Under the pieces are notes generated by a model. That model saw nothing but the letters and a program-made list of their open reading frames with translations. It was not told the DNA's origin and did not search any database. This document shows positions 6,275 through 22,302 of a DNA stretch of 22,889 bases, piece after piece. This DNA comes from a virus. Location: IMG/VR virus record IMGVR_UViG_3300009002_000048, positions 1 to 22,889 of that record. One strand, written 5' to 3'. Numbering within the stretch: the first letter of the stretch is position 1; every line of letters begins with the position of its first letter. Made by a program: the position numbers and the translations under genes.

Positions 6275-7069
6275 ATGGATTATTACAAAATACTTGGAGT
6301 TTCAAAAGACTCATCTCAGGATGATATTAAAAAAGCTTACAGAAAGCTTGCTAAACAATATCATCCTGACCACGGCGGTGACGAAGTTAAATTTAAAGAA
6401 ATTAATGAATCATACGAAACATTAAAAGACCCGGCTAAAAGACAGGCTTATGACACTCCCGGTGCTCGCACAGCTTTTGACCAGCCTGGATTTGAAGATA
6501 TCTTTAGTAACTTCTTTGGTCAAAATGTACAACGACGTAACAGAGATTTAAGAATTGCTATTAAAATTAACTTAGAAGAAGTTCTCGAAGGCAAAGATAT
6601 AATAGCAAGTTATACATTGGCAACTGGACAACAAACTACTGCTAATATAAGAATTCATGCAGGCGTCGAACACGGTGAGACTATTAGATACAAAGGGCTG
6701 GGCGACAATGCAGCAAGACAATTGCCCCGTGGCGATTTGCTTGTACAAGTTCAAGTACTAAGACACAAGATCTTTGAAAGAAACAACAAGCACTTGTATA
6801 TGGAGCACGGAGTTAGTATATTTGATTTAGTACTAGGAACTAAAGTTGAAATAAAAACGCTTTCAGGATCAAGTATTAGTGTTAATATTCCAGAAGGGAC
6901 TCAGCCTGGCACGACGTTAAGTGTTGCAGGCCACGGGTTGCCTACTAGAGTTACAGGCCAAAAGGGTAATCTTTATGTTACACTAAAGGCACGTATACCA
7001 CAAAACCTTACAGCTGATCAAAGACAAAGGATTAAAGAAATAAATGATGAACTTAATAACAGCACCTGA
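6275..7069 (+). CDS. DnaJ-like Hsp40 co-chaperone without zinc finger
   Basis: The J domain covers residues 1-62, with the HPD tripeptide at 30-32 that stimulates the host DnaK ATPase. A short Gly/Phe-containing linker (64-83, including [10 protein letters not shown]) leads into a DnaJ C-terminal substrate-binding region (about 90-245). The CxxCxGxG zinc repeats of full DnaJ are absent, so it is closer to CbpA-type Hsp40 proteins, at 264 aa. Its end overlaps the deformylase gene by 26 bases. Phage J proteins may help fold virion proteins or redirect DnaK. No DnaK or GrpE gene is present in the window. The start at 6275 lacks a strong ribosome-binding site. Confidence 0.9.
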
Positions 7070-7559
7070 TGTAATGCTTGAAATGCCGGTTAAACCTTTT
7101 GAGTTAGACCAAATGCACCCTGCACCTATTGCATTAGACATGATAGACTTAATGAATGCCGAGGGCGGACTTGGACTTAGTGCCAATCAAGTTGGGCTTA
7201 ACGCACAGATTTTTGTTATGAAAGTTATACTTAATAAGAAGGTTGGAACACCTTTAGTAGTTATTAATCCAATAATTAAAGGAATTAGTAATGAGAAGGA
7301 AGAAGGCATTGAAGGATGTTTGAGCCATCCGGGATTATTCCTTAAAGTTAAACGACCTATAAGTTGCATGGTGGAATTTGATACCTTGACAGATGACGGA
7401 AAAGCTGTTATACATATAGATGCAAAGTTTGATGACATAGACGCCCGTATATTCTTACACGAATACGATCATCTACATGGCGTACAGTTTATTAACCGTG
7501 TTAGCAAATTAAAATTAAAAATGGCCGAGAAACGCCGTAAAAAAAAGGATAACGCATGA
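7044..7559 (+). CDS. def: Peptide deformylase
   Basis: Deformylase removes the N-formyl group from new proteins using a metal ion. All three family motifs are present: [10 protein letters not shown] at 42-51, EGCLS at 90-94 with the metal-binding Cys92, and HEYDH at 139-143 with two metal-binding His and the catalytic Glu. At 171 aa it is near full length. Unlike many phage versions that stop soon after motif 3, it ends with a very basic tail (lysine/arginine-rich, about 155-169). Two Met codons (7044 and 7047) are possible starts. It sits between a J protein and a ClpA homologue and overlaps both. Confidence 0.95.
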
Positions 7560-9820
7560 TTGACCCAAGTTTAGCATTACAACAAGTATTTGACAAGGCA
7601 GTTAAATATGCTCTTAGCTACCAGCACGAGTATCTAACTCTTGAGCACTTGCTTTGTGTAATGCTTGAAGATGACGAGTTTAGAGAAAGTATTATTGGAT
7701 ACGGTTCAGATCCTGATCTAATGAAAAAGAACCTTGAAAATTATGTTGCAACAAAGCTTAACGACATCAAAATTGATGATGAAAAGTTTAAGCCAAAGAA
7801 GACACAAGCAGTTGAACGAGTATTAAATCGTGCATTTGCCCAAATTCTTTTCCAAGGCCGCAACGAAATTCAAGTTATAGATGTCTTTACTAGTCTCTTA
7901 ACGGAGAAGCGTTCGTATGCTTATTTTGTTACACAGCAAGCTAACATTGACAAAGACAAATTTACTGCATATGCTGCCACAAACGAAGATGGAGTTAGCG
8001 TAGATGAAGACGAAAGCATGGGTCCAGAAACTCGCGGGCCAGCAGCCAAAGCACTCAAAGCATTTACAACTGACTTAAACGACGAAGTAAGACAAGGCAA
8101 GATTGATCCTGTTATTGGTCGAGTTGAAGAAGTTGAACAAGTTGCACTAGCCCTCGGACGTCGCAGTAAGAGCAACGTATTGCTTGTTGGCGACCCTGGC
8201 GTTGGTAAAACAGCAATTGCCGAAGGTCTTGCATGGCGCATCGAAAACGGAGAAGTGCCAGAGTTCTTAAAAGAATACAGCGTTTACAGTCTAGACATTG
8301 GCAGTATGCTTGCGGGTTCTAAGTACCGCGGCGACTTTGAAGAGCGCTTTAAGCTTGTGTTGTCAGGCCTGCAAAAGAAAGGCAAGACTATTATGTTTAT
8401 TGACGAGGCACACATGATTAGTGGTGCTGGTGCAGGTGGACAGAATAGCGCAAACGATCTTGCTAACATGCTCAAGCCAGCGTTAAGTAAGGGTAACATT
8501 AAAGTAGTTGCATCAACTACTTGGGAAGAATACCGCAAATACTTTGAGAAGGATCGCGCACTTATGCGACGCTTCCAGCGTGTTAGTGTTGACGAGCCGT
8601 CACCAGCAATGGCAGTCGAAATTCTACAAGGAATTCGTAAGTACTACGAAGACTTCCACAATGTAGTTATTACTGACGAAGCAATTGACGAAGCTGTAAA
8701 ACTTAGTGTTAAGTATCAAACTGACAAAAAGCTTCCTGACAAGGCAATTGACCTAATTGATGTTGCTTGTTCAAGATTTAAGGTTAACGAGCAAACTGAA
8801 AATTGTGTTGTACACCCTGCAAACATTCAGTTTGAACTTGCAAAAATTGTAAACATTCCAGAAGAACAAGTTGCTGAAAAAGAAACTGAGAATCTTATAC
8901 ACCTTGAAGAAAATCTTAAAAGTAGTGTGTTTGGTCAAGACGAAGCAATTGAAGGCATTGTTGACAAGATTCTTGTTAGCCAGGCAGGTCTAAAGCCTGA
9001 CAACAAACCAGTTGGAAGCTTTATCTTTATGGGCCCAACTGGTACAGGTAAAACCGAGACAGCAAAAGCACTTGCACACCACCTTGGTGTAAAGCTTGTA
9101 AGATTTGATATGTCGGAATACCAAGAGAAGCATAGTGTTGCTAAGTTTATTGGTGCTCCACCAGGGTATGTTGGGTTTGATGACAACGCAGGTCAGCTAA
9201 TTGTCAAGCTACAAGAGAATCCAAACTGTGTTCTACTACTTGACGAGATTGAAAAAGCACACCCTGATGTTACATCAGTATTGCTTCAGCTAATGGACAA
9301 CGGTAGAATTACAGGGTCAAACGGTAAAGAAGCAGATGCACGTAATTGTGTATTGATTCTTACAACCAACCTGGGTGCAAGAGCTTCTGAAAAGAACAGC
9401 ATTGGATTTGGCGACACACTGGAAAAAGAATACGAAGACACTGAACTCAAGAAGTTCTTTGCTCCGGAGTTCCGCAACCGTCTGGATGCTACAATCACCT
9501 TTGCTAAACTCGGCAAGCCAGTTATGCTTAAGATTGTTGGCAAGTTTCTTGGAGAACTTAGAGAACAAGTTAAAGATAAAGGCGTTCATGTTACTGTATC
9601 AAACGAAGCTCTTGACTACTTAGTTGAGAAAGGATTTGATCCTAAGATGGGTGCAAGACCTCTACAGCGTGTTATTGACAAAGACATTAAGCGTCCGTTG
9701 TCAAGGCTTATGCTATTTGGCGAGCTAAAAGCTGGTGGAACCGTTAATATCGACATCGTTGATAGTTTAGTTAAACTTGAGGTAACAGCAAATGAGCAGT
9801 CTGAAACGGTCGGAATCTAA
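7556..9820 (+). CDS. clpA: ClpA-type AAA+ unfoldase
   Basis: The 754-aa product has a Clp N-domain (about 1-140) and two AAA+ modules: Walker A GDPGVGKT at 212-219 with Walker B FIDE at 281-284, and GPTGTGKT at 493-500 with LLLDE at 560-564; a sensor-2 GAR lies near 699-701. There is no ClpB-type middle coiled coil between the modules. An IGF tripeptide at 616-618 sits where ClpA and ClpX carry the IGL/IGF loop that docks on ClpP, so the protein is predicted to feed substrates to ClpP, presumably the host's. It overlaps the deformylase by 4 bases and the next gene by 29. A close match to bacterial ClpA suggests acquisition from a host. Confidence 0.95.
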   Translation: MIDPSLALQQVFDKAVKYALSYQHEYLTLEHLLCVMLEDDEFRESIIGYGSDPDLMKKNLENYVATKLNDIKIDDEKFKPKKTQAVERVLNRAFAQILFQGRNEIQVIDVFTSLLTEKRSYAYFVTQQANIDKDKFTAYAATNEDGVSVDEDESMGPETRGPAAKALKAFTTDLNDEVRQGKIDPVIGRVEEVEQVALALGRRSKSNVLLVGDPGVGKTAIAEGLAWRIENGEVPEFLKEYSVYSLDIGSMLAGSKYRGDFEERFKLVLSGLQKKGKTIMFIDEAHMISGAGAGGQNSANDLANMLKPALSKGNIKVVASTTWEEYRKYFEKDRALMRRFQRVSVDEPSPAMAVEILQGIRKYYEDFHNVVITDEAIDEAVKLSVKYQTDKKLPDKAIDLIDVACSRFKVNEQTENCVVHPANIQFELAKIVNIPEEQVAEKETENLIHLEENLKSSVFGQDEAIEGIVDKILVSQAGLKPDNKPVGSFIFMGPTGTGKTETAKALAHHLGVKLVRFDMSEYQEKHSVAKFIGAPPGYVGFDDNAGQLIVKLQENPNCVLLLDEIEKAHPDVTSVLLQLMDNGRITGSNGKEADARNCVLILTTNLGARASEKNSIGFGDTLEKEYEDTELKKFFAPEFRNRLDATITFAKLGKPVMLKIVGKFLGELREQVKDKGVHVTVSNEALDYLVEKGFDPKMGARPLQRVIDKDIKRPLSRLMLFGELKAGGTVNIDIVDSLVKLEVTANEQSETVGI

Positions 9821-11146: not shown

Positions 11147-11488
11147 ATGAAACTTAATGAAATTGATGACATGACTGATCTTGATCCTACTCAGCCACTG
11201 CCGTGGAACATGGTAGATGACTTAATTGTTTTTATGAAAAATGAGAATAGTTTCTATAGACGTAAACTATATCCAATGCTGTTAAACGTACAAGAGACTG
11301 TAAGCAACGGTGGCAAAGTTAACAAGAAAGACTTTGTTCCTATCATTGACGACGCTATCAAAGCATACGTTGGTAAGTTTGGTTTGAACAGAAGACCAGA
11401 CGATATGATGTCTCCATCAGAAAAGATGGAATGCATTGATAAACTTCTAACAGACGAGAAAGAAAGTTTCCGTAAGGGAGATTACTAA
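11147..11488 (+). CDS. Hypothetical protein, 113 aa, with MKLNEI N-terminus
   Basis: The function is unknown. It is a mostly helical, charged protein with a conserved-looking stretch LPWNMVDDLIVFMKNENSFYRRKLYPML at about 19-46. The N-terminus MKLNEIDDM fits the M-K-(I/L)-x-(E/D)-(I/V) pattern shared by the next nine genes, though it lacks a clear (I/L)-x-E cleavage-type site. It is the first member of the proposed internal-head-protein cluster and the weakest match. It overlaps the next start by 1 base (TAATG). Confidence 0.65.
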   Translation: MKLNEIDDMTDLDPTQPLPWNMVDDLIVFMKNENSFYRRKLYPMLLNVQETVSNGGKVNKKDFVPIIDDAIKAYVGKFGLNRRPDDMMSPSEKMECIDKLLTDEKESFRKGDY

Positions 11489-16200: not shown

Positions 16201-16362
16201 ATGAATGACCCGTACAACTGGCTAGAAGCCTATGACGAAGTGGAGAGATGCAACGAATGCATTAGACCAGAAAGTTGTCTTCGAGAATGTGTTTTGGACA
16301 AATATGTTCATGAAGACGTAGCCAAAATTAGAGACGAGGAGATTCACAATGCCATACGTTGA
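16201..16362 (+). CDS. Cys-rich microprotein before DNA polymerase, 53 aa
   Basis: The 53-aa product carries four cysteines in a tight block, CNECIRPESCLREC at about residues 17-30, so it may form a zinc knuckle. A strong GAGGAG ribosome-binding site precedes the ATG. Its last 14 bases overlap the DNA polymerase start in a different frame, a sign of translational coupling. T4-like phages often carry a tiny regulator near gene 43, but I cannot tie this to one. The 66-base gap before it (16135-16200) holds this ribosome-binding site and no convincing promoter. Confidence 0.65.
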   Translation: MNDPYNWLEAYDEVERCNECIRPESCLRECVLDKYVHEDVAKIRDEEIHNAIR

Positions 16363-19042
16363 CGCGTTCTTTGATCGCAATGCTGATACAATCAGAATTG
16401 TCGAACGAGACGATAATGGCAAACGAAAGTTTGTCGATCATCCTGTAAAATACACATTTTATTACGAAGATCAAAAAGGAAAATACAAGAGTATTTTCGG
16501 TAATCCGCTTTCAAGGATTATATGCAAGAACACAAAAGACTACAGAAAAGAACTTGCAATCAATAAAGGCAAAACATTATTTGAATCGGACATTAATCCT
16601 GTATTCCAATGTTTAAGCGAAAACTATCAAAATCAAGATGCCCCTAAGCTAAACGTTTGTTTCTTTGACATCGAAACAGACTTTGATCCAGAGAGAGGCT
16701 TTGCGCCACCTTCTGATCCGTTTATGGCAATCACTGCAATCACAGTACATCTACAATGGACTAACGATCTTATTACAGTAGCAATGCCTCCAAAAGGAAT
16801 GGCCATCGAAGATGCTAGAGCAATGTGCGAAGCGCGTTGGGGCAATGACGTGTTGTTGTTTCCAAACGACAAAGACGGCAACGGCGAAAGAGAAATGCTT
16901 AATGTGTTTCTTGATCTTATTGGCGACGCTGATATTGTAAGTGGATGGAACAGCGAAGGATATGATATTCCGTATACTGTAAATAGGATTGCAAGAGTAT
17001 TAAGTAAAAATGATACAAGACGTTTTTGTTTATGGGATCAACTTCCTAAGAAGAGAGAATATGTTAAGTACGGAAAGAATGCCGAAACGTATGATTTAGT
17101 CGGACGTGTACACATGGACAGCTTAGAGCTTTATCGTAAGTACACATACGAAGAACGTCACAGCTATAGACTTGATGCTATTGGTGAGATGGAAATTGGA
17201 GAAAACAAAACAGTATACGAAGGTACACTTGATCAGCTTTATAATAATGACTTTGAAACGTTTATTGAATATAACAGACAAGATACTGCATTGCTCGACA
17301 AGCTAGATAAGAAGCTAAGGTTTATTGAACTAGCAAGTGAAATTGCACACGATAACACAGTTTTGTTACAAACTACAATGGGTGCGGTTGCTGTTACCGA
17401 ACAAGCTATTATTAACGAAGCACACCGTAGAGGTATGCAAGTGCCTAACAGAAAAAATCATGGAGAGAATACACAAGCAGCAGGTGCTTATGTTGCTTAT
17501 CCAAAAAAAGGATTGCATGAATGGATTGCTTCAATGGACTTGAACTCTCTATATCCAAGTGTGATTAGAGCGTTAAACATGGCACCTGAAAGTATTGTAG
17601 GACAGTTACGTCCTACAGAAACTGATGCATTTGTGCATGAGCAAATGACCCTTAAGAAGAAGTCATTTGCTGCATCATGGGAAGGACTTTTTGGCACCCA
17701 TGAATACACACAGGTAATGGAAAAGCGTCGTGACAAGGATATTATAATTGATTGGGAAGATGGACGCTCGGATGTTCTAAGCGCAGCAGAAGTAAATCAA
17801 TTAATTTTTGATAGCAATCAGCCATGGATGCTAAGTGCCAATGGTACTATCTTTACACACGAGTTTGAAGCTGTTATTCCAGGTCTGCTAAAGCGTTGGT
17901 ATAGCGAGCGTCAAGACTTGCAGAAGATGCTAAAGAAGGCAAGAGCTGCACAAAACAGTGCAGAGATTGCGTTTTGGGATAAACGACAACTAGTTAAAAA
18001 GATTAACCTAAACTCGTTATATGGTGCTATTCTTAATCCAGGTTGTAGATTCTTTGATAAACGTATTGGGCAATCTACTACGCTAACTGGCAGGGGCATT
18101 GTTCAACACATGAGCGCCGAAGTTAACAAAACTATTACAGGAAAATATGACCACGTCGGCGACGCTGTTATTTACGGCGACACCGACTCGGTATACTTTA
18201 GTGCATATCCTAGCTTAAAGAAGGATATTGACAACGGTAGTATTCCATGGACTAAAGATAACGTTATTGCATTGTATGATCAAATTGCTGATCAGGTTAA
18301 CAAAACGTTTCCAGACTTTATGGGCAGAGCGTATCATTGTCCTAAATCTCGTGCAACAGTTATTAAAGCAGGCAGAGAAATTGTTGGCGAGACTGGACTG
18401 TTTATTACAAAGAAGCGTTACGCAATTCTTGTATTTGACGACGAAGGTAACAGAAAAGATGTTGAAGGTAAACGAGGCAAAGTTAAGGCAATGGGCTTAG
18501 ACCTAAAGCGAAGTGACACACCTGTGTTTATGCAAGACTTCTTAAAAGAATTACTTGACATGGTTCTGTTCAAGCAGCCGGAATCAGATATTCTTAATGC
18601 CATTACTGAGTTTAGAACATTGTTTAAAGATCGTCCAGGTTACGAAAAAGGCTCTCCAAAGAGAGCAAATAATATTTTGCATTATCAGAGACTTGAAGAA
18701 AAGCAAGGTAAAGCTAATATGCCAGGACACGTTAGAGCAAGCATTAACTGGAACACACTCAAGCGTATGAACGGAGACAAGTATTCGCAAGAAGTTGTCG
18801 ACGGCATGAAGGTTGTTGTGTGTAAGGTAAGGGCCAACCCACTTGGTTATACTAGTGTTGCTTTTCCAACAGACGAGTTACGTTTGCCAGATTGGTTTAA
18901 AGAATTGCCGTTTGACGACGCAGCAATGGAAGAAACTATTATTGATAACAAACTTGGCAACCTTATTGGAGTTCTAAACTATGATCTCGAAAGTACTAAG
19001 CGAAATAATACTTTCACTGACTTCTTTGACTTTGGTGATTAA
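16349..19042 (+). CDS. gp43: DNA polymerase, T4 gp43-like family B
   Basis: This is the replicative polymerase with 3'-5' proofreading. The 897-aa product is full length for the T4 family and shows Exo I FFDIET (105-110), Exo II-like GWNSEGYDIPY (199-209), Exo III YNRQDTALL (308-316), motif A MDLNSLYPS (396-404), motif B KKINLNSLYG (550-559) and motif C YGDTDS (609-614), all with their catalytic acidic residues. The last residues NNTFTDFFDFGD look like the hydrophobic C-terminal peptide with which gp43 binds the gp45 clamp. No intein or split is present. A GAGGAG ribosome-binding site precedes the ATG, which overlaps the Cys-rich ORF. Confidence 0.98.
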   Translation: MPYVDAFFDRNADTIRIVERDDNGKRKFVDHPVKYTFYYEDQKGKYKSIFGNPLSRIICKNTKDYRKELAINKGKTLFESDINPVFQCLSENYQNQDAPKLNVCFFDIETDFDPERGFAPPSDPFMAITAITVHLQWTNDLITVAMPPKGMAIEDARAMCEARWGNDVLLFPNDKDGNGEREMLNVFLDLIGDADIVSGWNSEGYDIPYTVNRIARVLSKNDTRRFCLWDQLPKKREYVKYGKNAETYDLVGRVHMDSLELYRKYTYEERHSYRLDAIGEMEIGENKTVYEGTLDQLYNNDFETFIEYNRQDTALLDKLDKKLRFIELASEIAHDNTVLLQTTMGAVAVTEQAIINEAHRRGMQVPNRKNHGENTQAAGAYVAYPKKGLHEWIASMDLNSLYPSVIRALNMAPESIVGQLRPTETDAFVHEQMTLKKKSFAASWEGLFGTHEYTQVMEKRRDKDIIIDWEDGRSDVLSAAEVNQLIFDSNQPWMLSANGTIFTHEFEAVIPGLLKRWYSERQDLQKMLKKARAAQNSAEIAFWDKRQLVKKINLNSLYGAILNPGCRFFDKRIGQSTTLTGRGIVQHMSAEVNKTITGKYDHVGDAVIYGDTDSVYFSAYPSLKKDIDNGSIPWTKDNVIALYDQIADQVNKTFPDFMGRAYHCPKSRATVIKAGREIVGETGLFITKKRYAILVFDDEGNRKDVEGKRGKVKAMGLDLKRSDTPVFMQDFLKELLDMVLFKQPESDILNAITEFRTLFKDRPGYEKGSPKRANNILHYQRLEEKQGKANMPGHVRASINWNTLKRMNGDKYSQEVVDGMKVVVCKVRANPLGYTSVAFPTDELRLPDWFKELPFDDAAMEETIIDNKLGNLIGVLNYDLESTKRNNTFTDFFDFGD

Positions 19043-19617
19043 TGAGAGAATTTTATAAGCACGCTCCTTATTTGTGTACGTTAGATAATAAAGATGCTAT
19101 AGTGTGGATACCAAAAAATGCTTCAAGCTTAATTAGACTTGCATATTATCGTCGACATGGCGAAGATTCTAACTGGCGTGGCATCGACTGGAGGAAACAT
19201 AGGATAGATCAGTTTCATGTAATATTACGAGATCCATATAAAAGATGGATAAGTGGTATGCAGGAATTTTATTTACACAATCAAGATAAAGAAGAAATGA
19301 TATTAGATACAATTGAAAAAATTGAATTTGATGAGCACACTGTTCCACAATCGGATTTTCTTCTTCAACCAAAACGTAATGACAATAACACTAGAACTAT
19401 TCGCTATTATGATTTAGAAACAGACGGATTAGAGAAATTAAACAATAAATTTAATTGGTTTAAAGAAATTCCTTTACATTATTCTGCTACAGATTTTCCA
19501 GCTAAAGTACAATTCAAAGAAAAGCTCGATAAAGTTATAGATAAAAGATTAATTAAGAAAGTTAAACAATTTTATTCTTCGGATTATGATTTAAGAGAAA
19601 GGGTTTTTAGATTATGA
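19042..19617 (+). CDS. Sulfotransferase-like protein (PAPS-binding)
   Basis: The 191-aa product has two motifs typical of sulfotransferases: a 5'-phosphosulfate loop-like VWIPKNASSLIR (21-32) and a 3'-phosphate-binding RDPYKRWISG (63-72). Such enzymes move sulfate from PAPS to sugars or other acceptors. It is short for the family, so the acceptor side may be reduced. It overlaps gp43 by 1 base and the next gene by 4 bases. Followed by three nucleotide-sugar-type genes, it may modify a glycan. The substrate cannot be read from the sequence. By eye it is more A+T-rich than the polymerase gene, which could mean separate acquisition. Confidence 0.75.
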   Translation: MREFYKHAPYLCTLDNKDAIVWIPKNASSLIRLAYYRRHGEDSNWRGIDWRKHRIDQFHVILRDPYKRWISGMQEFYLHNQDKEEMILDTIEKIEFDEHTVPQSDFLLQPKRNDNNTRTIRYYDLETDGLEKLNNKFNWFKEIPLHYSATDFPAKVQFKEKLDKVIDKRLIKKVKQFYSSDYDLRERVFRL

Positions 19618-20036
19618 AAGTAGGTATTACATTTTCAGCATTTGATCTATTACATGCAGGACACATTGGCATGTTACGCGAAGCTAGAGAAAATTGCGAT
19701 TATTTGATTGTAGGGTTACAAACCGACCCTACAATCGACAGGCCCGATACAAAGAACAAACCGGTACAAACACTTGTAGAAAGATATGCACAATTAAATG
19801 CATTAAAATTTGTTGACGAGATTGTGCCCTATCAAACCGAGCAAGACTTAATAGATATACTAGAACTTTTTCAACTCAATGTTCGTTTCTTAGGAGAAGA
19901 ATATAAAGAAAAAGAGTTTAGTGGAAAAGATGTTTGTCGCAGACGCGGCATACAATTACACTTCAATAAACGTGATCACAGGTTTAGTACAAGTAATTTG
20001 CGAGAGCGAGTAGCAAAGGCAACAAACAATGAATAA
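19614..20036 (+). CDS. TagD-like cytidylyltransferase / nucleotidyltransferase
   Basis: The 140-aa product has the core signature FSAFDLLHAGHIGML (7-21) with the HxGH motif (14-17) and the C-terminal STSNLR motif (125-130) of small nucleotidyltransferases such as glycerol-3-phosphate cytidylyltransferase and the HldE C-domain. These couple CTP or ATP to a sugar or polyol phosphate to make an activated donor. Size and motifs fit TagD best. It overlaps both neighbours (4 and 8 bases) and so belongs to a coupled four-gene module with a phosphomannomutase-like and a dehydrogenase-like enzyme. A perfect 11-bp hairpin lies inside it at 19706-19736. Confidence 0.88.
   Translation: MKVGITFSAFDLLHAGHIGMLREARENCDYLIVGLQTDPTIDRPDTKNKPVQTLVERYAQLNALKFVDEIVPYQTEQDLIDILELFQLNVRFLGEEYKEKEFSGKDVCRRRGIQLHFNKRDHRFSTSNLRERVAKATNNE
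19706..19736 (+). repeat. Perfect 11-bp hairpin inside the cytidylyltransferase gene
   Basis: GATTGTAGGGT (19706-19716) pairs exactly with ACCCTACAATC (19726-19736) around a 9-base loop. A perfect stem of this length is expected about 0.1 times by chance in the whole window (loop sizes 3-20), so it may act in the mRNA, for example as an internal processing or attenuation site. Confidence 0.5.
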
Positions 20037-20766
20037 ATTTATTTTTGATGTGGACGGAACACTAACTCCGAGTAGAGGGAGCATAAGCCAAGATCATGAA
20101 GATTTCTTTTCTGCATTCTGCTCTGCTAATCCGGTATATCTAGTTACCGGATCTGACAAAGATAAGACAATTGAACAACTAGGCGAGCGTATTGTAAATA
20201 AGGCCGTGATGGTTTTTAATTGCTCTGGAAATGATGTTTGGCAAAAAGGCGAAAACATTTATACAAACAAGTGGACTCTGCCAGAAGAAGTAGATAACTA
20301 TTTAATGAACACATTAGCACTTAGTGATTATCAAGATATGACTGGTAATCACTTAGAAGTCCGACCCGGTGCTGTAAATTTTAGTATTGTTGGCAGAAAC
20401 GCCAACGCAGAACAAAGACAAAAATATATCGAATACGATACTGAAACAAGTCAGCGCCAAAGAATTGTAGAAACCTTTAATAAGTTTATGCCGGACCGAT
20501 TTAAGTGTGAAGCTGTTATAGGCGGCGAAACAGGAATTGACATCTATCCTAAAGGGTTTGACAAGAGTCAAATTTTAAAAAGAATCAAATACACTAATAA
20601 AGATAAATTGTTTTTCTTTGGTGATAAGATCGAACCCGGCGGCAATGACTTTTCACTAGCTGAAGCTATTCGAAAAAACCGCTTAGGAATCGTTGTTCCA
20701 GTTCGTAACTGGAATCACACATTCGAAACACTTGCGTATTATATGGAGGCTAAGATAGCAAAATGA
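20029..20766 (+). CDS. Phosphomannomutase-like HAD enzyme (eukaryotic PMM type)
   Basis: The 245-aa product has the HAD nucleophile motif FDVDGTLTPSRG (6-17) with Asp7 and Asp9, a VRPGAVNFSIVGRNA segment (111-125) and FFGDKIEPGGND (196-207). These match the layout of eukaryotic-type phosphomannomutases (PMM1/PMM2), which convert mannose-6-phosphate to mannose-1-phosphate, and the length is right. Bacterial PMM/PGM enzymes belong to an unrelated fold. A plain sugar-phosphatase activity is the main alternative. It overlaps the cytidylyltransferase gene by 8 bases and the dehydrogenase gene by 4, consistent with a nucleotide-sugar pathway. Confidence 0.85.
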   Translation: MNKFIFDVDGTLTPSRGSISQDHEDFFSAFCSANPVYLVTGSDKDKTIEQLGERIVNKAVMVFNCSGNDVWQKGENIYTNKWTLPEEVDNYLMNTLALSDYQDMTGNHLEVRPGAVNFSIVGRNANAEQRQKYIEYDTETSQRQRIVETFNKFMPDRFKCEAVIGGETGIDIYPKGFDKSQILKRIKYTNKDKLFFFGDKIEPGGNDFSLAEAIRKNRLGIVVPVRNWNHTFETLAYYMEAKIAK

Positions 20767-21524
20767 TAGCATTGGCAGGATTTGGATTTGTTGGAAAAGC
20801 ACACTACGATGTTTTTAAAGGTCATTTTGACTTTGAAATAGTTGATCCATTGCACAACAACACCAAGCTAGAAAAATTAGAAAACGTTGAGGCTGTAATT
20901 TGTTGTGTACCAACACCGGAGGATAGTAATGGAGGATGCGATATTACAAATGTAATAGATGTTCTATCAAAGTCTCCCAAAGACGTTCCGATACTAATTA
21001 AAAGCACAATTGATCTTAACGGATGGAATCAAATTAAAGACAAATTCCCTGCACACAACATAACGTTTAGTCCTGAATTCTTAAGAGCAATATCATCAAC
21101 AACCGACTTAGCTGATACAAACCAATTTATATTAGCTGGCGAAAACGTTCTCTTCTGGAGAGACTTTTATAAAAAGCATAACAACAGATCCAAGTTTTTG
21201 CTTTTATCAGTTGAAGAAGCAATACTTGTTAAGTATTTCAGAAATGCGTTTTTAGCTACTAAGGTTAGTTTCTTTAACGAAGTATACGACTTTTGTAAAG
21301 CACACGACATTGATTTTGACAGTGTAAGAAAAGGAATTACCAAAGACAAACGTATTAGAGAAAGTCATTCGTTTGTTGATCCAGATTATGCACGAGGATG
21401 GGGCGGAATGTGTTTTCCTAAAGACACAAGCGCTCTATTAAAAATGGCAGCAAATAAAAATATTAATCTAAATACACTTGATGCAGCAGTAAAATACAAC
21501 AAAATAATTCGTAAAAAGACTTGA
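20763..21524 (+). CDS. Short UDP-glucose/GDP-mannose 6-dehydrogenase-like protein
   Basis: The family oxidises a nucleotide sugar to its uronic acid with NAD. The 253-aa product has the NAD-binding GFGFVG (6-11), CVPTPE (48-53), STI (81-83), FSPEFLR (102-108), the central YFRNAFLATKVSFFNE (158-173) and GGMCFPKD (214-221) with the catalytic Cys217. It stops soon after that point, whereas usual members reach about 390-450 residues and end with a nucleotide-sugar-binding domain. It may be a compact phage version or may act on a different substrate. It overlaps the previous gene by 4 bases (ATGA) and is followed by a new promoter. Confidence 0.87.
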   Translation: MIALAGFGFVGKAHYDVFKGHFDFEIVDPLHNNTKLEKLENVEAVICCVPTPEDSNGGCDITNVIDVLSKSPKDVPILIKSTIDLNGWNQIKDKFPAHNITFSPEFLRAISSTTDLADTNQFILAGENVLFWRDFYKKHNNRSKFLLLSVEEAILVKYFRNAFLATKVSFFNEVYDFCKAHDIDFDSVRKGITKDKRIRESHSFVDPDYARGWGGMCFPKDTSALLKMAANKNINLNTLDAAVKYNKIIRKKT

Positions 21525-21570: not shown

Positions 21571-22302
21571 ATGAGAGACATACTACTTGATATTATAAAT
21601 CATACACACAGCTTAGGGTTCATTACTATGCTTAAAGTTACAGCAGAAAATGAAAACGAAACTAGACTTGACGCAATGACAGAGAATCGTGCTGTTATTA
21701 TGTCGGCAGTCACAAAACAGCCAGTTGGAGAATTCAGCGGAGTGTTTGGTATGCCAGACTTAAACAAACTTGCATATCACCTTAAAAACCCAGAGTACAA
21801 AAAAGAAGCAAACATTGAGGTGCGCCAAGAGGAAAGAAACGGTGAAACGATTCCTGCTCAGATTCACTTTGAAAATGCTAACGGTGACTTCCAAAACGAT
21901 TATCGTTTTATGAACAGACAGATTATCGAAGAGAAACTAAAGACAGCAATGTTCAAAGGCGGCGACTGGCGCGTTGTAATTGAACCAACTATGGCAGCAA
22001 TTGGCCGCTTGAAACTTATGCAAGGTGCGCATTCAGAAGAAACTGTATTCCAAGTTAAAACTGAAGATGGCAATCTAAACTTTTACTTTGGTGATGCGGT
22101 TACACACGCAGGTCACTTTACATTTGAAAGTGGACTTACTGGATCCTTGCAAAATAGTTGGTCTTGGCCAATTTCCGAAGTTGTTGATATCCTAGGACTC
22201 GACGGCGATAAAACAATGAGTATTGCAGACGGCGTTATGAAGATTAGTGTCGATAGCGGATTAGCAGTGTACGATTACATGCTGCCAGCACAACAAAAGT
22301 AA
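21571..22302 (+). CDS. gp45: Sliding clamp candidate (T4 gp45-like)
   Basis: The 243-aa product has the size of gp45 (about 228 in T4) and an alternating strand pattern through two apparent repeats. It shows a GVFGMPDLNKLAYHL segment near 58-72, like the clamp region DLxxFxxxL, and ends in LAVYDYMLPAQQK, a typical final clamp strand. The clamp holds the polymerase on DNA and in T4 also activates late transcription. It has its own strong sigma70-type promoter and lies two kilobases after gp43. Direct similarity to T4 gp45 is weak by eye, so the call rests on fold pattern, size, context and a memory of similar phage proteins. Confidence 0.65.
   Translation: MRDILLDIINHTHSLGFITMLKVTAENENETRLDAMTENRAVIMSAVTKQPVGEFSGVFGMPDLNKLAYHLKNPEYKKEANIEVRQEERNGETIPAQIHFENANGDFQNDYRFMNRQIIEEKLKTAMFKGGDWRVVIEPTMAAIGRLKLMQGAHSEETVFQVKTEDGNLNFYFGDAVTHAGHFTFESGLTGSLQNSWSWPISEVVDILGLDGDKTMSIADGVMKISVDSGLAVYDYMLPAQQK

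Follow-up and report, generated by a model that had tools for sequence, protein, structure and literature searches.

Between the DNA polymerase and sliding-clamp genes of IMG/VR virus record IMGVR_UViG_3300009002_000048 (22,889 bases, from an aquatic virus of bacteria; "the window" below means this whole stretch), four overlapping genes very probably form one coupled nucleotide-sugar module. The genes are sulfotransferase-like (ST), a small nucleotidyltransferase (CT), an alpha-phosphomannomutase-type HAD protein (PMM) and a truncated nucleoside diphosphate (NDP)-sugar dehydrogenase (UDH). Across relatives, the third enzyme of the module, either UDH or an SDR epimerase, predicts which of two glycosyltransferase types (GTA or GTB) lies past the clamp, a relation newly found here. 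The best single reading is that the module would supply the donor for this glycosyltransferase and that the acceptor would be phage DNA carrying 7-deazaguanine; by analogy with known systems and from gene context, we put the probability of this full chain at roughly 0.45.

The module is an insertion between polymerase and clamp

The block is an insertion. An earlier note on this DNA, made from the letters alone, had called it foreign to the usual T4 replication cluster, and gene order in relatives bears this out: Phosso has one short gene between polymerase and clamp, Atu_ph07 has none, and in PAC2 the two genes are adjacent, the polymerase itself being split by a homing endonuclease (Hef-like). 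The T4 setting needs one correction, in that the clade is kin to jumbo T4-like phages and not to T4 itself; the nearest annotated polymerases are those of Phosso (49%) and Atu_ph07 (46%), with 121Q also among the nearest jumbo phages. The clamp label is supported because its homologues in Phosso and PAC2 carry the annotation sliding clamp or PCNA.

The four genes, their order and their overlaps are as the note had described them (Table 1); the dehydrogenase proved to be a truncated form. The polymerase stop and the ST start have one base in common (TAATG), ST and CT overlap by 4 nt, CT and PMM by 8 nt, and PMM and UDH by 4 nt, with 46 nt between the end of UDH and the clamp start. The module is richer in AT than its flanks (GC 30% for ST and 34% for UDH, against 39% for the polymerase and 41% for the clamp).

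Of 109 distinct polymerase–clamp intervals, nearly all hold the complete cassette or some part of it, so the linkage of its genes is far beyond chance; its homologues travel together rather than standing singly among unrelated neighbors. Our survey covered 75 distinct intervals, anchored on polymerase or clamp, in viral contigs of the aquatic clade to which the window belongs; CT was present in 70, PMM in 61, UDH in 46 and the SDR epimerase in 24. The usual orders were CT-PMM-UDH and CT-PMM-SDR, with UDH-SDR-CT and CT-PMM-UDH-SDR also seen, and the neighboring slots for cupin, FNR, PRPP synthetase and ST vary freely among intervals. The closest sister of the window, contig L003, is 82–86% identical over CT, PMM and UDH. 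The slot in L023 holds a GIY-YIG endonuclease, and in contig G001 (131586–136673, L161–L162) polymerase matches are spread over several open reading frames (ORFs) with inserted sequence between them.

The third enzyme predicts the glycosyltransferase type

Every relative with enough sequence carries a GTA or GTB gene about 3.6–6 kb past the clamp start. Both are glycosyltransferase-like and distantly related to one another, GTA being GT-B-like; the labels derive from weak Pfam GT1 matches and the annotations of homologues, and PHROG and PDB searches of GTA and GTB returned no significant match. Intervals with UDH only were accompanied by GTA (35/35), and intervals containing SDR by GTB (23/23), so that the two traits match in all 58 distinct intervals (Fisher p = 1e-16, a value that ignores relatedness). 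On the polymerase tree the two traits each change only twice, and they change together. Placing all UDH/GTA members in one clade is rejected by the polymerase data, so the pairing originated, or was retained, on two or more occasions. We infer that the module likely feeds GTA or GTB.

CT was also tried as a marker tracking UDH and was dropped, as 8 changes are required on the CT tree and a single clade is rejected; CT identity to the window is 85% in UDH-type against 66% in SDR-type intervals.

Enzymes of the module

PMM is clearly an alpha-phosphomannomutase-type HAD protein by its profile match (PF03332, 104.7 bits against a cut-off of 22.4) and by phmmer, with E values of 5e-30 to 5ue7 and 4e-28 to human PMM2. 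An alignment of 27 sequences shows the stretch FDVDGTLTPSR and residues R112, R123, R130, K179 and D199 to be invariant; D7, D9, R16, R112, R123 and R130, likewise invariant, align with PMM2. The roles of the DxDGT motif and of the substrate arginines are established for PMM1/2. The phage protein thus has in common with PMM1/PMM2 its HAD family, the DxDGT motif and the aligned arginines, whereas its similarity to them is only distant and its substrate is a prediction. In the proposed pathway, PMM would shift the phosphate of a hexose phosphate, probably that of mannose or glucose, from C6 to C1. A profile scan of genomes for a cellular origin of PMM gave 24 relatives, with the cassette only in L405, and this origin was not adopted; in L405 (4217–6660), binned as Rhodobacteraceae and possibly a phage contig, the order is UDH-CT-PMM. 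In Acinetobacter phage AB1I1M-1, cupin and PMM-like genes come after DNA glucosyltransferase-like genes and a helicase.

CT matched PF01467 at 47.1 bits (cut-off 21) and is nearest to the models for heptose-1-phosphate adenylyltransferase (RfaE domain II, 85 bits; equivalog cut-off 181.5) and TagD (56 bits; cut-off 165.4). Because neither equivalog score was reached, its putative nucleotide and sugar specificity is not readable from the sequence. The HAGH motif (HxGH) and an FS-S/T-S/T motif near the C-terminus are kept in 24 aligned sequences, and CT would couple the sugar-1-phosphate to a nucleotide. In L057 (6291–7001), CT and a cupin domain form one in-frame fusion, the cupin being a gene of its own in some other slots; the fusion suggests that the cupin may act on the same sugar as CT.

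UDH matched PF00984 at 88 bits (cut-off 25.4), with PF03721 just below its cut-off. The C-terminal UDP-binding domain PF03720 is absent from the window protein and from all 37 aligned UDH sequences, and the window UDH ends at the point where that domain would begin. Residues C217, K157, N161, E105, T82, D221 and R197 are invariant in the 37 sequences. The structure model (pLDDT 93.6) has as its best PDB match the UDP-Glc dehydrogenase 7kws (TMq 0.84, TMt 0.56) and covers about half of that enzyme. UDH therefore shares with UDP-glucose 6-dehydrogenase the NAD domain, the central domain and the catalytic Cys, Lys, Asn and Glu, but is without its C-terminal UDP-binding domain. Other short forms occur in Campylobacter phage CP220 (256 residues) and Microbacterium phage RobsFeet (262 residues), and contig G005, from an SDR-type phage, has a short UDH about 110 kb from the module (L155:12413–13144).

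The earlier note had proposed that a sugar-1-phosphate is made, activated and then oxidized to a uronic acid. The coupled, conserved module with intact catalytic residues fits this series of steps, in which UDH would oxidize C6 without a UDP-binding domain; because the nucleotide-binding C-terminal domain is missing, an NDP-sugar is only a putative substrate of UDH.

The fourth step of that proposal, sulfation of a product, would fall to ST. ST is an optional, rare, low-GC addition (4 of the 75 intervals; 30% GC against 39% for the whole window), and would add sulfate in some lineages. The window ST reached no family in the profile search; among six aligned members, two touch Sulfotransfer_2, with a best E of 0.036. 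By inspection, the invariant stretches are IPK..SS (residues 23–29), LRDP..RW.SG (62–72) and KIEFDEHTVPQ, the first two resembling the PAPS-binding loops that are sulfate-donor-type motifs. A fold search with ST gave no significant match (E above 0.1), sulfotransferases being frequent among the matches. Nine ST matches were found, the window's own sequence among them, and every one is located between polymerase and CT, with CT following directly in 8 of 9; in L127, an oxidoreductase-like gene and an HNH gene separate the two. ST occurs at no fewer than three (at least 3) separate places on the polymerase tree. In several ST-carrying relatives (L128, L129, L132; for example L129:8539–9471), a PRPP synthetase-like gene, named by eye, directly follows UDH.

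In relatives, the glycosyltransferase lies among 7-deazaguanine genes

In G001 and the related contig G003, the gene order is glycosyltransferase, SDR, phosphoribosyltransferase, FolE and QueE, with other genes between; G005 has the same order without that SDR. FolE and QueE were recognized by profile in G001 and by similarity in G003 and G005, none lying inside the window, and QueD was found in 4 of 12 contigs. The same glycosyltransferase family occurs in the FolE/QueE clusters of three otherwise unrelated phages, Synechococcus phage BUCT-ZZ01 (GTA 68–70% identical), Acidovorax phage ACP17 and Xanthomonas phage X1, two of them with QueD, and the X1 cluster includes an annotated transglycosylase. 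PA5oct-type Pseudomonas phages likewise carry this family within such genes or close to them.

Every relative whose sequence extends far enough encodes, immediately after the clamp, a protein of about 500 residues that shares the ordered motifs DSGG(F/L)Q ... QG ... HxLG ... (Y/F)D(C/S/A) with the transglycosylase-type proteins of BUCT-ZZ01, ACP17 and X1. It is the sole ORF with DSGG(F/L)Q in each of three contigs (727 ORFs in all), and in L003 both this transglycosylase-like gene (6809–8425) and GTA are present downstream. A Pfam search of the 12 contigs for TGT (PF01702) found none and is uninformative, as a phage transglycosylase set with an annotated member also escapes Pfam. QueC (PF06508) gave weak partial matches in 6 of the 12, which we did not use as support. 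In Campylobacter phage CP220, the short UDH is two genes after QueE, and Campylobacter phage DNA is reported to be highly dADG-modified (PMC6884629).

These relatives share FolE, QueE, QueD and a transglycosylase-motif protein beside the clamp with phages having 7-deazaguanine (Dpd) DNA modification, but differ in their weak QueC evidence. A limited literature search found no report of glycosylated 7-deazaguanine in DNA. Glucosylation of hydroxymethylcytosine or hydroxymethyluracil as in T4 was considered and rejected: a single thymidylate-synthase-family protein is present in 4 of the 12 contigs and none in the others, and the window gene of this family (521–1387) looks by eye like an ordinary ThyA.

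Other features of the window

Upstream, DnaJ-like, peptide-deformylase-like and Clp ATPase-like genes (6275–9820; names by eye) form an overlapping row that is kept in G001, G003 and G005. Between 11147 and 14459 lies a run of small genes together with a 340-residue nucleotidyltransferase-like gene at 11488, with similar N-termini (MKLNEID, MLLREVYEQ, MKIYEIVTE, MQVSDLINE, MKIDEIT, MKINDVITE and MVKINDIVTE); we take these to resemble T4-type capsid-targeting peptides cleaved after Glu.

Table 1 Coordinates of the module and its boundary genes in the window.
Feature	Position	Strand	Evidence
DNA polymerase B (gp43-like), upstream boundary	16349..19042	+	PF00136/PF03104, phrog_262
ST, sulfotransferase-like, 191 aa, optional module member	19042..19617	+	Motifs; Sulfotransfer_2 E 0.036 in 2/6 members
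CT, small nucleotidyltransferase, 140 aa, most constant module member	19614..20036	+	PF01467 above cut-off
PMM, alpha-phosphomannomutase-type HAD protein, 245 aa	20029..20766	+	PF03332 105 bits
UDH, truncated NDP-sugar dehydrogenase, 253 aa	20763..21524	+	PF00984 and PF03721 only
Sliding-clamp homologue, downstream boundary	21571..22302	+	phrog_12062; homologues' annotation

Discussion

The pathway that we propose would run from PMM through CT to UDH, with ST acting where present, and its product would be the donor for the co-encoded GTA about 4 kb past the clamp. In SDR-type relatives, the epimerase would take the place of UDH, and the divergent GTB that of GTA. The acceptor would most likely be phage DNA with 7-deazaguanine, the genes for which (transglycosylase-like protein, phosphoribosyltransferase, FolE, QueE and QueD) are found around the glycosyltransferase or close to it. 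Gene order, conservation, catalytic residues and co-variation are observed; the substrates, the passage of the product to the glycosyltransferase and the role of DNA as acceptor are inferred. The earlier note had listed the host surface, virions and DNA as possible uses; the comparative evidence favors DNA, because the co-varying glycosyltransferase sits in a 7-deazaguanine gene cluster beside replication genes.

If the donor instead altered host surface polysaccharide, through co-encoded or host glycosyltransferases, it could block superinfection or mask receptors, and a place on the replication side would give early expression. Enzymes such as PMM, NDP-sugar dehydrogenase, epimerase and sulfotransferase typically belong to surface polysaccharide pathways, and UDH has its closest structural counterpart in Campylobacter Cj1441. 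Full-length dehydrogenase-like genes, separate from the module, are present elsewhere in G001 and G005, and in SynMITS9220M01 a relative of CT stands in a heptose cluster that also holds glycosyltransferases. We nevertheless regard this use as unlikely: the block has no polymerase, flippase or membrane glycosyltransferase, and the glycosyltransferase that co-varies with it is embedded in a 7-deazaguanine cluster, in unrelated phages as well. Decoration of the virion or of another phage protein would also be compatible with a co-encoded glycosyltransferase and donor pathway, and virion glycosylation occurs in some phages; with no link to structural genes, and with genes for replication and base modification next to the glycosyltransferase in several lineages, it appears very improbable. 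The module and the glycosyltransferase may, on the other hand, have no functional link at all, UDH-only/GTA and SDR/GTB being merely co-inherited by descent. That each trait changes only twice on the polymerase tree, and that BUCT-ZZ01 has GTA without the module, speak for this. The rejection of one UDH/GTA clade speaks against it, as does the agreement of every scored interval while the cupin, FNR, PRPP synthetase and ST slots vary freely, and we judge simple co-descent improbable.

Several observations weigh against DNA as the acceptor of a module-made sugar. Since each trait changes twice, the agreement across intervals counts as some two independent matched switches rather than 58. BUCT-ZZ01 has GTA without CT, PMM and UDH, so GTA does not strictly need the module, and Phosso and PAC2 have GTB without it; nor does CT track UDH cleanly on the CT tree. 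The absence of the UDP-binding domain makes the predicted UDH substrate uncertain. The glycosyltransferase and 7-deazaguanine genes would lie beyond the end of the window and are placed there from relatives, and the modified base is predicted from genes alone. For the transglycosylase-like gene, a candidate DpdA, Pfam and PDB searches gave no match and profile comparison gave E 0.022 with a probability of 2%; because profile searches do not confirm the relation, we treat this putative identity as a lead.

Two known systems resemble the proposed one. Bacillus phage SP-15, whose DNA carries glucuronate and glucose (PMC5977210), appears to be the closest working analogue: the making of its glucuronate-bearing hypermodified DNA has been attributed to UDH, UGPase, phosphomannomutase and glycosyltransferases (PMC5977210). 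It has the same series of steps (6-phosphate to 1-phosphate, NTP activation, C6 oxidation, glycosyltransferase), and its UDH, UGPase and glycosyltransferase genes are close to SSB and DNA ligase. The phage studied here differs in its small RfaE/TagD-type nucleotidyltransferase, its truncated UDH and 7-deazaguanine as the neighboring base pathway. RB69 appears to be the closest positional analogue, as a module proposed to make UDP-arabinose for DNA (ORF055c, ORF53_52c) adjoins its DNA polymerase (PMC6024577). In this ara-hmC system, too, lineage-specific sugar-donor genes stand beside DNA polymerase and the DNA glycosyltransferase (arabinosyltransferase ORF003c) is elsewhere; it differs in its hydroxymethylcytosine target and its isomerase/NTP-transferase-like proteins, and has no PMM or UDH. 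The layout of both systems, sugar-donor genes by replication genes together with a phage glycosyltransferase, is met in the relatives, the glycosyltransferase lying beyond the window.

In its most specific form, the proposal describes phages with glycosylated 7-deazaguanine DNA, in which a matched glycosyltransferase uses a uronic-acid (UDH/GTA) or epimerized (SDR/GTB) donor, sulfated in ST lineages and made by a dehydrogenase without its nucleotide-gripping domain; we offer this version tentatively and consider it doubtful as a whole. By modifying their DNA, phages defeat restriction and certain CRISPR nucleases. The matched pairing of donor pathway and glycosyltransferase beside 7-deazaguanine genes is widespread among viral contigs of freshwater and marine origin; it points to a class of hypermodified DNA for which we found no report, and the reading names the exact genes to test. 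If true, it would show how phages shrink cellular sugar pathways, CT, PMM and UDH together amounting to about 640 residues.

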